The notes under the pieces are model-generated. The model ran no database searches. It was not told where the DNA came from and saw only the letters and a program-made list of their open reading frames with translations. Positions 9,142-34,517 of a stretch of DNA of 34,517 bases are shown piece after piece (positions within the stretch are counted from its first letter, which is position 1; each line of letters opens with the position of its first letter). The translations under genes and the position numbers were made by a program. This DNA comes from Planctomycetaceae bacterium. GTDB lineage: Bacteria; Planctomycetota; Planctomycetia; Planctomycetales; Planctomycetaceae. The stretch covers positions 1 through 34,517 of the forward strand of contig JAQGHT010000557.1 in NCBI GenBank assembly GCA_028291565.1. Direction: 5' to 3'.

Positions 9142-10322
9142 TGCAAAGACTCCAGAATCTCCAGCAATTCGACATCCGAAATCTTTCGTGGATTCCCGTC
9201 AAGACTGTTGCCATGCGAACTCTGCACGATGGCCGGCAGTTGGCTGGATTGCACACCCACCGCAGACAACCGGCGCGGGATCTTTAACTCGTCCAGCAAG
9301 TTGGTAATGGTGTCCAACCCCGCTTCAATGGCAGCTCGCGGACTGGCCCAGTTGCGGCCGGTCATGACCGTCATCACGCGTGCCAGTTCCACTTGACTTG
9401 CCTCCGCGTTCACGCGAATCGCGGTCGGCAAGAGCATCGCACAAGCCAGTCCGTGAGGAACTCGACAGTGGACTCCGAGCGCCGCGGCGATACCGTGTGC
9501 GACGCCCAATCCTGAATTTGCTAAAGCCATGCCGGACAACAAAGCCGATTGAGCCAATAGTTCTCGAGCCGGTCGATCATCCGGCTGATGGAAAGCCCGA
9601 CGGAGGGCCGCGACCACGCCTTCCAGGCCCCGTTGGCACAAGGCCTGCGGGATGGGCTTCGCGCGGCAGGAGATATTGCTTTCGATCAACTGCGTGAGTG
9701 CATCCATACCGGTCGCGGCGGTGACCGCGGCAGGAACGCTGACTGAAAGCTCGGGATCGATCAACACGAGCTTCGGGACCATCATGTCCGACCGCAGACT
9801 CTTTTTGAACGGCGGCGAATAAGAAGAAATGACAGCATTTTTCGTCGCTTCCGAACCCGTGCCACTCGTGGTCGGCAGGACGACGAGTGGCAATGGCTGC
9901 TGCTCAATCTTCAGGCCTTTGCCGACTCCTTCCAGGAAATCCAGCACGGAACTCCCGTGCGTATTCGTCAACAGCGCCGACACCGCTTTCGCCAGATCGA
10001 TCGCTGAGCCTCCGCCGACCGCAATGACGAAATCTCCGTCGGTGATCGAACTGGCTCGCAATTGATTTACGAGCTGGTCGACGTCACTCACTTCGGGTTC
10101 ATGCGTGATGGCCGCACACCGGATCGAATCAATGCCAACCGACTTGAGGTCGTCCAGAAGTGATTCAATCACGCCATTTTGATCGAGAGTCCGTGAGCCT
10201 GAAATCAGGAACGCCCTGCGACCCAGGCCGCGAACCAGATTTCCCAATTCGCTACGGCGTCCCCAACCGAATACGATGCGCGGCGGGGCGAAGAACTCAT
10301 AGGCAGGGAGTGATGACAGCAT
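9138..10322 (-). CDS. Iron-containing alcohol dehydrogenase family protein
   Basis: GGGSAIDLAKAVSALLT, LPTTSGTGSEATKNAVIS, DALTQLIESNIS, GVAHGIAAALGVHCRVPHGLACAMLLP are typical of the Fe-ADH fold. Confidence 0.9.
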   Translation of the reverse strand: MLSSLPAYEFFAPPRIVFGWGRRSELGNLVRGLGRRAFLISGSRTLDQNGVIESLLDDLKSVGIDSIRCAAITHEPEVSDVDQLVNQLRASSITDGDFVIAVGGGSAIDLAKAVSALLTNTHGSSVLDFLEGVGKGLKIEQQPLPLVVLPTTSGTGSEATKNAVISSYSPPFKKSLRSDMMVPKLVLIDPELSVSVPAAVTAATGMDALTQLIESNISCRAKPIPQALCQRGLEGVVAALRRAFHQPDDRPARELLAQSALLSGMALANSGLGVAHGIAAALGVHCRVPHGLACAMLLPTAIRVNAEASQVELARVMTVMTGRNWASPRAAIEAGLDTITNLLDELKIPRRLSAVGVQSSQLPAIVQSSHGNSLDGNPRKISDVELLEILESLQ

Positions 10323-10369
10323 TGCAGGAGGATAATTGGTGTTTGACCGATTATCAATCCTTGTGGCAT

Positions 10370-10568
10370 GACACTCTGTGTCGTGATCAGTGAGTCAGGA
10401 GCGAAGCGACTGGCGAGGTATCATCCGCGTGATTTCACCCGATCATCAGTTCACACCAACCATTAGCTTTTTTCAGCTTTTTCGCAGAGTCAATTCCAAC
10501 GCGTTCTGTTCGAAGGATGCCGCGCCAGTCGCTGCGCTTCTAGCTCGCCTCTTGCGACACGGAGTGTC
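10370..10568. repeat. 199-bp element bounded by ~46-bp imperfect terminal inverted repeats
   Basis: Left arm 10370-10415 gacactctgtgtcgtgatcagtgagtcaggagcgaagcgactggcg. Reverse complement of right arm 10523-10568 is gacactccgtgtcgcaagaggcgagctagaagcgcagcgactggcg. 35/46 identical by hand alignment. Confidence 0.8.
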
Positions 10569-10739
10569 GCACCACATTGGGGCCTATTCCGCACAAGCCA
10601 GAGGCTTATGCTACGACAAAGCTGGACGAACTCTGAAGCGAAGGGCTATTATCCGGCGTCGGTCTCGGCAAAGTCTGCTCAAATACAAAGCGGATGCGTC
10701 GAGTTTCTCTTTCGAACGACTTTTGGGAGTCTGTTTCCG

Positions 10740-14800: not shown

Positions 14801-15368
14801 GCTGGATTTCCAGACCGCAGTTCTGGATTTCCAGGTAATAATCGTCGCCAAAGGTCTTGCGGTACCAGCCCACGACGTTACGGGCTTCGTCCATCCGATT
14901 TTCGAGGATCATTGACGAAAGTTCGGCCGAACAGCAACCCGAAAGACAAATCAACCCTTCGTGATGCTTGGCCAGAATTTCCTTGTCAATTCGCGGCTTA
15001 TAGTAAAAGCCTTCCAGGAAGGCGTAAGAAGCCAGCTTGATCAGATTCTGGAAACCGACGCGATTCTTGGCCAGTAACGTCAGGTGGAAACTGGCTTCCT
15101 TGGTCCGTGAGGCGCCCCCTTTTTCGAACCGGCTGCCAGGCGCGATATAGGCTTCATAACCCAGGATGGGGTTGATCCCGCCGTCCTTGCATTTGGAGTA
15201 AAACTCCAGGGCGCCATACAGATTACCATGGTCGGTAATCGCCAGCGAATTCATTCCCAGTTCCTTGGTCTTCTTGACCAGGTCGGGGATGCGGTTCGCT
15301 CCATCCAGCAGGCTGTACTGAGTATGGCAATGCAGGTGAGCGAAAGGGCGAGCGACAGCTTCAGCCAT
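11841..15368 (-). CDS. dnaE: DNA polymerase III subunit alpha
   Basis: 1175-aa ORF: PHP domain FAHLHCHTQYSLLDGANRI, SCGTHAAGVVIGDRPL, PDIDIDFCRDRRELVINYV, GYGFNKSHSTAYGAIAYQTAFLKAHFPAEFMAALLS. Confidence 0.98.
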   Translation of the reverse strand: MAEAVARPFAHLHCHTQYSLLDGANRIPDLVKKTKELGMNSLAITDHGNLYGALEFYSKCKDGGINPILGYEAYIAPGSRFEKGGASRTKEASFHLTLLAKNRVGFQNLIKLASYAFLEGFYYKPRIDKEILAKHHEGLICLSGCCSAELSSMILENRMDEARNVVGWYRKTFGDDYYLEIQNCGLEIQRLCAEGTIDLSKELGVPLVATSDTHYLTQEDAAAHDVLLCVNTHTSRADTKRMRLDSDQFFLRSPEQMYQAFPGLDDAVARSQEIANKVDIQLDLKTRHFPVFTPPDEKKDIDYLRELCEKGLIWRYGENANDQKYLDRLKFELGVIGKMGFASYFLIVWDFARFATENGIPCLARGSACGALVAYTLGLSNVCPLKYDLLFERFLDPNRVEAPDIDIDFCRDRRELVINYVKQKYGSENVAQIGTFGTLKARAVIRDVARALQIPLDRVDEVAKSVPETLNIKLKDAIQESPDLLEAYNNDAQIKEVLDIGMKLEGLARSCGTHAAGVVIGDRPLVEYVPLQRITGKEEIITQWTEVEKAGLLKMDFLGLRNLTILDKAVINVKKRTGRDIDPQKFPMDDKATFALLQRGETKGIFQLESGGMRDLLQKMRPDSFLDIIATSALYRPGPLEGGMVMTYVNVKNKKEPHPKVHPIIDDILNETYGVMVYQEQVMRILNRLGGIELSSSYACIKAISKKKLDLMMKFKEQFLKGSQQEGLDQKQAGEFWDMIEKFAGYGFNKSHSTAYGAIAYQTAFLKAHFPAEFMAALLSCEMEDTERINEHVDDARRMNLKLYPPDVNRSDTEFSVVGDKELSFGLSAIKGLGTPVVKALAIERQARGPFKNIFDLAERLDSKVLSKGALEILIKAGALDSFKASRSQHLAVVERAIQGSASKQRDRLSGQKSLFGDEDEKPTKAGQVAAPLALPEVPELTHSQILAFEKEVIGFYLTSHPLTEHSTKLSAYASHVNKDLAGLEDRTEVMVGGMIGSIKKAQTKKPSKNGHSKYVNFDLEDVTGIMRCIMWPEDFSRQGELVKSEEIVFVRGRIDKKNREPNLVVSEIITLEAADKKFTEKVILRFQKGMHTEADFVQARGILCNFPGKCDVVVLIESFDDANPEKKFKFPVSSDLRVTADAQMERQLSELLGKQNIRFIGDARKKTKQNSYSE

Positions 15369-15720
15369 GAGTCCATTCCCAATAGAAAACGACAGACGCC
15401 GCTGACAAATTTGTCAAACACGGGTCGCGCGGGACGAGAAGGCCTCGCCACTTTCTGATGCACGGGATCCCGGCTGTCGTGGCGGGTATTCTACACGATC
15501 CCGGGTGATCACCCAAGCGTGACGCGCATTAAGGCGAGCCGGGAATCAGCGCAATCGTTTTGATTGGCGAAGTCAATCGTCGTTTCTACGAAAGGCACGC
15601 ATGAATTCAAAGCACGGCCGACTGAAATCGTCATCCCAAGTTTGGAGTAACGTCTTCAGCCGGCGCGGTGGACTTCCGCCGCAAATCGGCAATGCAAAGC
15701 AACCGACTTCGTGCGGTCAG

Positions 15721-16067
15721 CCTTCAGGTTTTGAAGTTGCGCTGTTTGAGCGATTTAAAACGAGAATTGAAGACCATTCCGTATTTGCAGACCAACGGGC
15801 GGCGATTCGACAGCCCAAGCCAACGGCCTGGGATTGGCCCTTGATGAATCTCACAAGCCCCAAACGGGGCGCACCCGACGCCAACCTCCAACTGGGTTTG
15901 AGACAGCTCAGGTTGCGGCCCGTTGGGGCTTGTGAGATTCATTGATCGCACTTGTCCCAAGCCGATGGCCTGGGCTGTCGAATCGCTACCCTTTGGGCCG
16001 CAAAAGCCGACAAGTCGGAACATCTGCACAATAGCCAATCAAAGAGTGCAACTTCAAAGCCTTCAGG
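15721..16067. repeat. 347-bp long imperfect inverted repeat
   Basis: Outer arms ccttcaggttttgaagttgc (15721-15740) vs cctgaaggctttgaagttgc (RC of 16048-16067), 17/20. Middle gcgattcgacagcccaagcc vs gcgattcgacagcccaggcc. Inner tgaatctcacaagcccc present in both arms. Arms share one centre near 15894. Confidence 0.85.
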
Positions 16068-16082
16068 CGGGATTCCCACTTT

Positions 16083-16406
16083 TCAATTGCTCACATTGGC
16101 GTCGAACACGCGGACGAGCTTCCAATTGGGTTTGTTTTCTTCAATGAACTGCTTGTGGCGGGTATGGACCTGATAATCGTCGTGGGCCTTACGGCTTTCG
16201 AAAACCATCTGCAGAGCGACATCGAAGCCACGATCATTCACTTCGCGATCCAGGTCCGGAACCAGAGTTCCCGCTGCGAATAAAACCGTGCCTGGATGAG
16301 CGGTCAGGTATTTGTTGCAGGCGGCAACCAACTTTTGCTTGGCGGCCTCGGAATTGTCATGCAGAGTGAAATAAACCATGTGCCCAATCATTTGCGTTCC
16401 AGCCAT
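16083..16406 (-). CDS. Dabb (stress-responsive alpha/beta barrel) family protein
   Basis: MIGHMVYFTLHDNSEAAKQKLVAACNKYLTAHPGTVLFAAGTLVPDLDREVNDRGFDVALQMVFESRKAHDDYQVHTRHKQFIEEN matches the Dabb pattern. Confidence 0.85.
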   Translation of the reverse strand: MAGTQMIGHMVYFTLHDNSEAAKQKLVAACNKYLTAHPGTVLFAAGTLVPDLDREVNDRGFDVALQMVFESRKAHDDYQVHTRHKQFIEENKPNWKLVRVFDANVSN

Positions 16407-16684
16407 TCAATCAATCCTCGTTCAGGAAAAAAGTTCTCGCGCACCAAATCTGCCAGAAAGCGCGTGTACGTTGAAGAGTTTAATGAAAACCGCTTCGAAT
16501 GCGAGTCTCGGAAAGACTGCCTCGAATTCCAGCGTCGTGAGGGATCTTGCGCGGCTGATTTCCGCGGAGCCACGTCTACGAAATCTTGGGTCTCAGCCCA
16601 GAAACCGAGCGAACCGCCCCAAACACTGGCGCAACTTCAAGATGTGGAGGCGCGACTCCATTGATCGTTATCCGACGGCGCGAA

Positions 16685-21601: not shown

Positions 21602-23030
21602 TGCCATTTGCCTTAAGTTCCTGTTCTAGATGATCAATTCCCAACCTCAATTCCAGCACGTCAGGAGTCAATCGATCTTCCCACGCCCCGTTGGTGCCAG
21701 AATCTGATCCAGAGACTGGCGTTTGCACTGGCCCCTCTGGAGTCGTCGCGGGGAATGCATCAGTCTGAGTCACCACACTGGCCTGCGAGACCTCTTGAGC
21801 TGGTTGCCAGCAAATCCAAGTCGCAATACTCAGCATCGATGCAATCGGAACTGCGATCCAGATCCACCACCGGCCACGCAATCGAAACCGGTGCTGTGGC
21901 ACGGATTTCGGGAGCGGAACCATCGTTGGTTGTTGGACATGGGCCAGGCAGCCACTCAAAATCTCTGCTAAATGTTTCGCCGAGCCAATACGTTCGGCCG
22001 CGTGCTTGTTGAGCAATGCGGCGATGACGGCCCATAACCAGACGGGAACAGACGGATTGATCTCGCGCAAGGGACGCGGTTCGCTCTCGCAGATCCGCCG
22101 CAAAATCGCCAACGTGCTTTCAGCCCGAAATGGGGGATGTCCTGTACACATCGCATACAGCACACTTCCAAGACTGAACAAGTCGGAACGATGATCGACC
22201 GGTTCGCCTTTTGCCTGTTCGGGCGACATGTATTGTGGCGTCCCCGCGATGACTCCGCTGCGCGTCACACTGGCGTCATCAACCGCCCGTGCCAGGCTGA
22301 AGTCGGTCAGCAGCACTCGGTCGACATTCTTTTCCAGAAGGATATTCGCCGGCTTGATGTCACGATGAACCAGTCCTTGAGCGTGCGCGGCGGCCAATCC
22401 TTCCGCGACCTGAAAACCGATTCGCAAGATTTCTGTGATCTCCAGCGGTCCCACCCGGTCGAGTCGCTGCTGTAACGATTCCCCCGCCACAAACGGCATC
22501 ACCAGATATGGCAGGCGATGGGTCGCATTGACGGAATGAATTGCCACAACGTGTTGATGGACGACCGCTGCCGCAGCTTGTCCCTCGCGAGCGAATCTTT
22601 TTCGCGCTGCGCCGCTGCTGGCCCATTGTGGTGCCAGGACTTTGATCGCGACATACCGATTCAAATCGTGATCATAGCCCTTCAGGACGACCCCCATGCC
22701 CCCACGGCCAATGATCTCAAGAACCTCGTATTCTCCCAAACGTCCCAACATGGCGGGATTATCAGACGGGTCCAGAAAATCTAAGGACACGGTATCGACA
22801 GCGTCCGGGCCCGCTAACTTGGAAGTCACCTCTTCGGTCAAACCACTCAGGAATTCTCGAGTTTGATGCCACCAGGTTTCGTCGGCCGCGAGACCTTCCA
22901 ATTGCTGGCGGCACCGGGGGCAGACGTCGAGATGCCGAGCGAGCTCTGCCTGTTCAGAGTCACTGAGACCATCGTCAATCAAGCGTTGCAGTCGTGCGGC
23001 ATCGCAGCGGAGTTTGGAAGCAAACATCAC
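21597..23030 (-). CDS. Ser/Thr protein kinase with N-terminal zinc-finger (anti-sigma-like) segment and C-terminal TM helix
   Basis: IGRGGMGVVLKGYDHDLNRYVAIKVL, HRDIKPANILL, GTPQYMSPEQAKGEPVDHRSDLFSLGSVLYAMCTGHPPF. N-terminal HLDVCPRCRQQLEGL (H-x3-C-x2-C). TM segment WWIWIAVPIASMLSIATWICW. Confidence 0.93.
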   Translation of the reverse strand: MMFASKLRCDAARLQRLIDDGLSDSEQAELARHLDVCPRCRQQLEGLAADETWWHQTREFLSGLTEEVTSKLAGPDAVDTVSLDFLDPSDNPAMLGRLGEYEVLEIIGRGGMGVVLKGYDHDLNRYVAIKVLAPQWASSGAARKRFAREGQAAAAVVHQHVVAIHSVNATHRLPYLVMPFVAGESLQQRLDRVGPLEITEILRIGFQVAEGLAAAHAQGLVHRDIKPANILLEKNVDRVLLTDFSLARAVDDASVTRSGVIAGTPQYMSPEQAKGEPVDHRSDLFSLGSVLYAMCTGHPPFRAESTLAILRRICESEPRPLREINPSVPVWLWAVIAALLNKHAAERIGSAKHLAEILSGCLAHVQQPTMVPLPKSVPQHRFRLRGRWWIWIAVPIASMLSIATWICWQPAQEVSQASVVTQTDAFPATTPEGPVQTPVSGSDSGTNGAWEDRLTPDVLELRLGIDHLEQELKANGI

Positions 23031-23136
23031 AAAGTACTCAAAGGATCGAAGTCGAGAAATAACACTGCACTGTGAATCAAACGGGTCAGAACCCGCGCAT
23101 CAATTACCGTTGTGACTAGTGACAAGTATTCATCAG

Positions 23137-23279
23137 CCCCGGAGGGCGACGCCGTGAAGGATTTTGGTGGCTGAATTCGTGAGAATTTGGGCCGATCGAC
23201 GTGTTTCGCCCGAAATCTCACGATTTCAGCTACGCGGAATGCGCCACAATAAAATCCTTCACGGCGTAACCCTCCCGGG
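23137..23279. repeat. 143-bp imperfect inverted repeat between sigma factor and kinase genes
   Basis: Outer arm gacgccgtgaaggatttt vs RC ttacgccgtgaaggatttt. Inner arm tgaattcgtgagaatttgggc vs RC tgaaatcgtgagatttcgggc. Confidence 0.8.
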
Positions 23280-23366
23280 TGGGTGAGTTCAGAAACTTAT
23301 TAATTCTCCAGTCCAAAGCGACGGAGCCCCTTCTTCTGCGAATGGCTCAGGAGGCCACGTGTTATG

Positions 23367-23963
23367 CTAAATCACCTGCGAAACCTCCTGCACTTTCTTT
23401 CGCAAACGCGACATGATGCGGCTGCGTGAAACATAAATCACACCGGCTGCAACACCCAATTGATCTGCGACTGTCGCGACATCTTGTCCTTCCACAGTGG
23501 TTCGCCAAAAGGCCTGCCATGTCGCTTCACGAAATTCGTTTCGAATCTGTAACGCGGCCCACTGGAACATTTGACGCTGCTGTTCCTGGTCAAAAGTCGC
23601 CGACTCGGCATCGTCCGCTGGAATGGCTTCCAGGAACTGACGGAAGTCCGAATCGCCGAACGCCTGAGGCCGGCGTTTCTGGCGGATCAACATGTTCACC
23701 GTCACATTTCGCGTCACCCGATTCAGCCAACCTCGAAACGAACCGCGGCCCGGGTCGGGCTGCCAGGTCTCGATGGCCTTTGCCACCGCCATCAAAACCT
23801 CTTGCGTCACCTCATGGGCATCGGCATCCTGGATGCCACGGCGGCGAGCCAGACGGTAGATCAGGGGTTGGTAAATCTCCAGAAACTCGTGCCACGCCCG
23901 CTCCTGTTGCGGCTCGCGCAACCGCAGGAGCAGGCTCGGTCGTGTTTCCGGAGCAGAATTCAT
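23367..23963 (-). CDS. ECF RNA polymerase sigma factor
   Basis: From ATG 23963: MNSAPETRPSLLLRLREPQQERAWHEFLEIYQPLIYRLARRRGIQDADAHEVTQEVLMAVAKAI...FRGWLNRVTRNVTVNMLI...ATWQAFWRTTVEGQDVATVADQLGVAAGVIYVSRSRIMSRLRKKV: sigma-70 region 2 and 4 pattern. Confidence 0.92.
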   Translation of the reverse strand: MNSAPETRPSLLLRLREPQQERAWHEFLEIYQPLIYRLARRRGIQDADAHEVTQEVLMAVAKAIETWQPDPGRGSFRGWLNRVTRNVTVNMLIRQKRRPQAFGDSDFRQFLEAIPADDAESATFDQEQQRQMFQWAALQIRNEFREATWQAFWRTTVEGQDVATVADQLGVAAGVIYVSRSRIMSRLRKKVQEVSQVI

Positions 23964-27393: not shown

Positions 27394-27542
27394 GTTTTTG
27401 CAGCATCGTCGAATGATGATGACTGCAGGCCGATCATTCAAATTGCTCGCCTTGGACAGGAATTGCAGAACGAGAGAAACGATTCTCCGATCCCCCAATC
27501 AGGAATGCAGCAACTTATCTGCTTTTCGGTCTGAATTTGCGC

Positions 27543-27652
27543 TGATTAGCGGAGATTAGTGTTCCCAATTTGCATCGTCTCTTCCTGCAGTCGGCTACCC
27601 ACCGTTTGAGAATTCAGAATTTGGAATGTTGAACACTAAGCTCCGCTAATCG
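27543..27652. repeat. 110-bp intergenic element with 22-bp terminal inverted repeats
   Basis: 27543-27564 tgattagcggagattagtgttc vs RC of 27631-27652 cgattagcggagcttagtgttc, 20/22. Confidence 0.75.
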
Positions 27653-34311: not shown

Positions 34312-34517
34312 CTTGGACGCACACAGACAACCGATTCCCTGGCCTGAAACTCAAGTTTTGAAGTCGCACTCTTATGGCTTTTTCGGCTAGGTCCCGTCAG
34401 ATGTAACGATGAAAAACAAGTGTCGTCGAGCGTGATGACGCGGAATTTTGCAATTTGATCATGAGGTTTTTCCGACTTAGTGTTGGGTATTGAGATGGAA
34501 GGTTTGAGCGAGGTCGA

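Follow-up and report, generated by a model that had tools for sequence, protein, structure and literature searches.

The question raised by this locus is what produces a long inverted repeat between the Dabb gene and dnaE of a planctomycete. Within the window, which is the whole stretch of 34,517 nucleotides that was analyzed, the initial annotation had placed a 347-bp inverted repeat with arms of approximately 150 bp at positions 15721-16067, had noted conserved blocks in the arms and the possibility of a very long hairpin, and had attributed the repeat to no gene. This description held in all these respects. The element at 15729-16059 is a small gene-less transposon, one of dozens in its own planctomycete genome, and most of the long hairpin is the nested cargo of a second, unrelated type of mobile element. 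We consider it very probable that the feature is a non-autonomous MITE of the DDE family (IS4/IS701-like), carrying a nested, gene-less array of Y1 ends (HUH, IS200-like, TIRYT-type) and amplified as a unit. This accounts for a group of long hairpins found between genes in planctomycetes and links them to two transposases.

Boundaries and internal organization of the element

The left 148 bp of 15729-16059 align with the reverse complement of the right 149 bp in one local alignment with two small gaps. The score of this self-alignment was 57, compared with a maximum of 13 among 500 shuffles and of 30 among 670 other 331-bp slices of the window. The conserved blocks were recovered by a repeat search (30 nt at 83%, 50 nt at 84% and 20 nt at 100%), and complementarity is weak in the middle of each outer arm (approximately 15750-15783). 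The predicted RNA fold reaches -201 kcal/mol on the plus strand and -212 kcal/mol on the minus strand, with z around -12 against shuffled controls on both strands. Domain searches confirmed the flanking genes as Dabb (PF07876) and DnaE (PHP, pol III alpha, finger, HhH and OB domains). The two ORFs that lie over the inverted repeat, 15601-15945 (+) and 15724-16038 (-), matched no Pfam family, and their earlier designation as by-products of the symmetry is therefore right. Spurious ORFs over repeats of this kind should not be taken for genes.

The range 15721-16067 extends from target duplication to target duplication, exact to the base. The same 8-bp sequence, CCTTCAGG, is found on the plus strand at 15721-15728 and at 16060-16067, in accordance with an 8-bp rule in 30 family members. 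Between the two copies lies a complete MITE of 331 bp without coding capacity (15729-16059), which has at its ends the terminal inverted repeats TTTTGAAGTTGCGCT (15729-15743, plus strand) and AGTGCAACTTCAAAG (16045-16059, minus strand), the latter recognized by end-sequence match and self-alignment. The left 15-mer is identical to that which ends autonomous ISs in other Planctomycetota.

The interior follows the order A-B-C-loop-C'-B'-A', each letter representing a short palindrome. On the plus strand, palindrome A (GCAGACCAACGGGCGGC, 15787-15803) is conserved in copies, palindrome B (CAGCCCAAGCCAACGGCCTGGG, 15811-15832) is of a type that flanks Y1 transposase genes in related members of the phylum, and palindrome C (AAGCCCCAAACGGGGCG, 15855-15871) was read from the sequence, as was C'; the order A-B-C also occurs in genome G011 and in other planctomycete copies. 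The central loop (15872-15915) occupies the position of the Y1 gene in gene-bearing relatives, which have the order B-C-[Y1 gene]-C'-B' (L302 and L300). On the minus strand follow palindrome C' (CGGCCCGTTGGGGCTTG, 15916-15932), which pairs with C in the fold, palindrome B' (15956-15977), detected by the B-pattern search, and palindrome A' (GCTACCCTTTGGGCCGC, 15985-16001), again conserved in copies.

Elsewhere in the window, TTTTGAAGTCGCACT at 34356-34370 has two mismatches to the MITE end and lies near the contig end at 34517; it is probably a further family copy cut by the assembly. A lone right-end-like sequence without a partner, GGCGCAACTTCAAGA, is located at 16628-16642, approximately 570 bp from the element.

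A family of gene-less elements and its autonomous relatives

In the own-genome assembly (10.1 Mb, 85% complete), BLAST with the element revealed homologous sequence at at least eight other loci (C1245, C526, C43, C618, C283, C730, C710 and C683), with 75-88% identity over the matched parts and several copies truncated. The 14-bp family end (TTTTGAAGTTGCGCT...AGCGCAACTTCAAAA ends), with at most one mismatch, gave 111 matches in this genome versus 12 for the reversed control, and the ends often form convergent pairs 280-345 bp apart. The family thus consists, as expected of MITEs, of multiple dispersed copies without coding capacity.

The flanks of 30 end pairs showed an identity of 0.56, compared with 0.336 in shuffled pairs (z = 7.5), at the offset corresponding to an 8-bp duplication outside TTTT...AAAA. 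At the other offsets from 4 to 14 the z value was near zero, except for 2.7 at offset 4. A target duplication of 9-10 bp, counted from TTTG/CAAA, was rejected, as the peak at 10 arises when one terminal base from each inverted repeat is counted together with the 8-bp duplication. The duplication is perfect (8/8) in the window copy, L002, L035 and L103. Several own-genome end pairs showed no matching duplication, for which recombination or decay would be needed. The insertion sites are palindromic, of the AGCCCGAAGCGCAAGCGAGTGC, GGCGAGGCTCCTGCCGAGCC and GCCTTCAGGCGGGA types, and the AGCCCGAAGCGCAAGCGAGTGC-type site is itself repeated in this genome (40 matches versus 4 in the control). REP-like palindromes in Planctomycetota are hot spots at which an IS group inserts that lies beyond current curated family models.

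Three forms of 131 bp (C376, C1036 and C755) are devoid of the inner part and retain a single A-type palindrome. These forms, which have no B-C-C'-B', could be empty or secondarily deleted; since one A is retained, slippage between A and A' could equally well have removed the inner part, and they were rejected as proof of an empty site.

A search of 101 genomes from the same family detected the exact 15-bp end in 16 of them, and reversed controls were near zero. In a Schlesneria MAG, an end pair 1506 bp apart encloses a 484-aa protein, P0001, and is flanked by an 8/8 duplication, CGCGCAAG. P0001 matches Pfam DDE_Tnp_1 (E = 3e-17), and its motif YSLRWQIELFFKELK has, by eye, the IS4-type YREK spacing Y(2)R(3)E(6)K, so that both the domain and the motif characteristic of IS4 are present. 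Its scores were 56 bits against the NCBIfam IS4 model (cut-off 115) and 106 bits against the IS701 model (cut-off 150). The autonomous relatives resemble IS4 and IS701 in their DDE_Tnp_1 domain, YREK-like spacing, length of approximately 1.5 kb and inverted ends, but score below both NCBIfam cut-offs and generate 8-bp duplications, whereas IS701 is known for 4-bp duplications.

The same ends with perfect 8-bp duplications were found in other Planctomycetota (L148, L149, L150, L151 and L166), as well as in one copy of Zavarzinella formosa (L168, 8/8). The duplication matches at 7/8 positions in L164 and at 6/8 in L165, and as far as the contig reaches in L161 and L163. The MITE ends are consequently shared with transposase-encoding elements (L143/L148, L149, L150, L151, L161, L163 and L166), all of them in genomes other than its own. 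In L148, L149, L161 and L163, the left flank reads CCCGA followed by the 8-bp target, and the right flank, where present, continues with CGAGGG. Zavarzinella formosa also has shortened copies with identical ends (L167-L172). In two of its IS copies, L171 and L172, the right flank repeats the left flank in reverse complement, as would be expected if copies that had inserted into palindromic sites in opposite orientations had recombined. In genome G070, all 10 occurrences of the exact 15-bp end are on the plus strand of the contigs and none is on the minus strand; the right ends that were read there carry a one-base difference.

A protein search of the own genome (85% complete) found no close relative of the P0001-clade DDE transposase, which implies either that the transposase lies in the missing 15% or that the MITEs of this genome are orphaned. 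The five DDE_Tnp_1 genes of the own genome were considered as autonomous partners, and none has matching ends; C289, an own-genome DDE_Tnp_1 gene, showed a weak 40-residue match to P0001 and no such ends.

Nested Y1 palindromes and recurrent combinations of ends and cargo

With regard to the interior, a search of 149 Planctomycetota genomes for palindrome B in the form CAGCCCAGGSCANCGSCCTGGG, one mismatch being allowed, gave matches in 18 genomes, and controls were near zero. The matches often form inverted pairs 111-172 bp apart, and the order of palindromes at these loci is that of the window. In genomes G193 (L300) and G011 (L302), a Y1 gene (IS200-like, PF01797) lies exactly between C and C'. 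Most of 30 loci of this Y1 clade are flanked by inverted palindromes of the A-B-C kind, including L327 (49-bp arm at 98%) and L332 (30 bp at 100%). The own genome contains a comparable element on C1201 (L308), with the order A-B-C-[Y1 gene]-C'-B'-A' and class-b palindromes AGTCCCGTCAGGGACG, TAGCCCACCG...CGGTGGG and AAGTCCCGCCAGGGACG. The cargo of the sister MITEs L035, L044, L047 and L079 matches its arms at 77-90% identity, and the C1201 element itself lies outside DDE-type ends. Three own-genome Y1 genes were examined as possible partners of the class-a cargo, and none had class-a palindromes nearby.

TIRtrons are Y1 genes with palindromic terminal repeats (PMC3733652), and class 3 Y1 genes of Planctomycetes adjoin atypical secondary structures (PMC6006769). 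In layout, L302, L300 and, for sister class b, L308 correspond to TIRtrons/TIRYTs and resemble class 3 TnpA-Y1 loci, with a Y1 gene between inverted, self-complementary palindromes; in contrast, the window array is geneless and lies inside a DDE-type MITE. REPINs (PMC3116915) share with this array a geneless inverted palindrome pair, the hairpin and the link to Y1 transposases, but they differ from its multi-palindrome A-B-C layout and its enclosure by a DDE-type MITE. Reading the palindromes by eye, we noticed no GTAG tag of the REPIN/RAYT type.

In one tandem array with a period of approximately 302 bp (L274, G193 C5 230000-236500), inverted B pairs surround a Y1 gene together with an apparent restriction-modification specificity gene, and the palindromes of this array give spurious ORFs rich in SPGQRPG/ALPWA.

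Among the 30 own-genome pairs, those of 284 bp or more form long inverted repeats when folded. By their interiors they belong to at least four classes, a (that of the window), b, c and d, which have only the ends in common, and a further class, e, was found in C796. The A-B-C layout is present in classes a, b, c and e; for class d, no Y1 gene with matching palindromes was found. Recombination between the arms would be expected to invert the central loop, and two of seven class-d elements indeed have it in inverted orientation. Other inverted repeats lie between the same ends in relatives, such as CTGATCTACACTAATCTACGCTAATC in G001 (L126). Same DDE-type ends with at least four unrelated Y1-like palindrome arrays provide a testable system. 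DDE-type MITEs might repeatedly recruit Y1 arrays, either because the hairpin brings the ends together or because the composite is moved by two unrelated transposases as a dual-mobility mini-element, a proposal that we regard as speculative and rather unlikely. Such dual mobility, if true, would combine double-stranded cut-and-paste with single-stranded HUH transposition.

In several genomes, an A-B-C/C'-B'-A' array seems to lie inside other, genome-specific outer repeats such as TTCGTAAAAAGTCG and AACCTACCCC (L280 and L282 in G308, L287 in G233, L275-L279 in G252), which suggests that such arrays may quite generally be nested, in a variety of outer elements.

As a class, bacterial MITEs such as RUP, NEMIS, Nezha and EFAR, among others, have been described (PMC3733652). 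The present family resembles them in being short and geneless, in its terminal inverted repeats in common with ISs, in its target duplication and in its ability to fold, but differs in that its cargo is a palindrome array of another transposon class and in its palindromic insertion sites. ISs that target REPs have been catalogued in Pseudomonas, Sinorhizobium and Neisseria (PMC1525189); they likewise insert into extragenic palindromes, whereas here a planctomycete family with 8-bp duplications is concerned. Among open-licence papers, we found neither the family end sequence nor a description of an end family with 8-bp duplications in planctomycete palindromes or of DDE-type MITEs in which Y1 palindrome arrays are recurrently nested.

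Origin of the element and alternative explanations

In the proposed scenario, the ends TTTTGAAGTTGCGC...GCGCAACTTCAAAA would have served as recognition sites for a DDE transposase; the enzyme would have cut a short palindromic sequence with an 8-bp stagger and placed the element there, the target at the Dabb-dnaE locus being GCCTTCAGGC. The inverted array A-B-C/C'-B'-A' inside the MITE would represent the gene-less end structure of a Y1 transposon, and the DDE transposase would have multiplied the composite of MITE and array as a whole. The boundaries, the target duplication, the copies, the autonomous relatives with the same ends and duplications and the Y1 genes in the same palindrome layout are the observations behind this scenario. 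Weighing against it are the negative searches of the own genome for a DDE transposase of this clade and for a Y1 gene with class-a palindromes, as well as the end pairs devoid of a matching duplication. From the supporting observations we infer past transposition by a P0001-clade transposase in the organism's own lineage, where the transposase gene would since have been lost or is unsampled. The Y1-type array was presumably acquired before amplification, since copies with an 8/8 duplication (window, L002 and L035) contain it. As for the order of nesting, a Y1 element could have entered the MITE or the ends could have been acquired around a Y1 array, both being compatible with the data.

With its location 15 bp past the Dabb stop codon and on the same strand, the element may form part of the 3' end of the Dabb transcript. 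This position, together with the strong fold on both strands, would suit a functional structured RNA or terminator, i.e. a hairpin at the 3' end of the Dabb transcript that is selected for its fold. A search of 15300-16500 against Rfam found no family; the best match, sR60, scored 17.4 bits against a cut-off of 50, which is chance-level. Among six copies, eight pairs with two-sided changes were observed versus 3.4 expected, a small excess of compensatory changes, but pairing was hardly above that of shuffles (84.6% versus 83.4%). In sister subfamily d, the number of such pairs was at chance, and covariation was rejected as evidence of RNA selection. Furthermore, what defines the family is its transposon ends and duplications, and these ends also occur on sister elements whose interiors are unrelated. 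A selected RNA is accordingly improbable, and the idea of a dedicated hairpin RNA locus gives way to a symmetry explained by the terminal inverted repeats of the MITE and its nested Y1 palindromes.

It is more doubtful still that the locus represents only a Y1-transposase element of the REPIN/TIRtron type, mobilized by an HUH enzyme, with incidental outer ends. Although its A-B-C/C'-B'-A' layout is that of gene-bearing Y1 elements, the boundaries, the 8-bp duplications and the copies coincide with the DDE-type ends and not with the palindromes, and such duplications are not known from IS200-type elements. A one-off local inverted duplication at the Dabb-dnaE locus, which the initial annotation had tied to an absence of copies elsewhere, is favored by nothing except the symmetry itself and can be dismissed in view of the homologous loci, the 111 end matches versus 12 and the dozens of elements with the same ends.

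Apart from this MITE with its Y1 cargo, the window contains further inverted repeats. Two of them, at 10276-10680 and 23001-23400, have self-alignment scores of 30 and 25, respectively (shuffles of the main element reached at most 13). Another, at 27401-27560, has GATTAGCGGAGATTAG-like arms and resembles the CTAATCTACGCTAATC cargo inside the MITE of G001 (L126).
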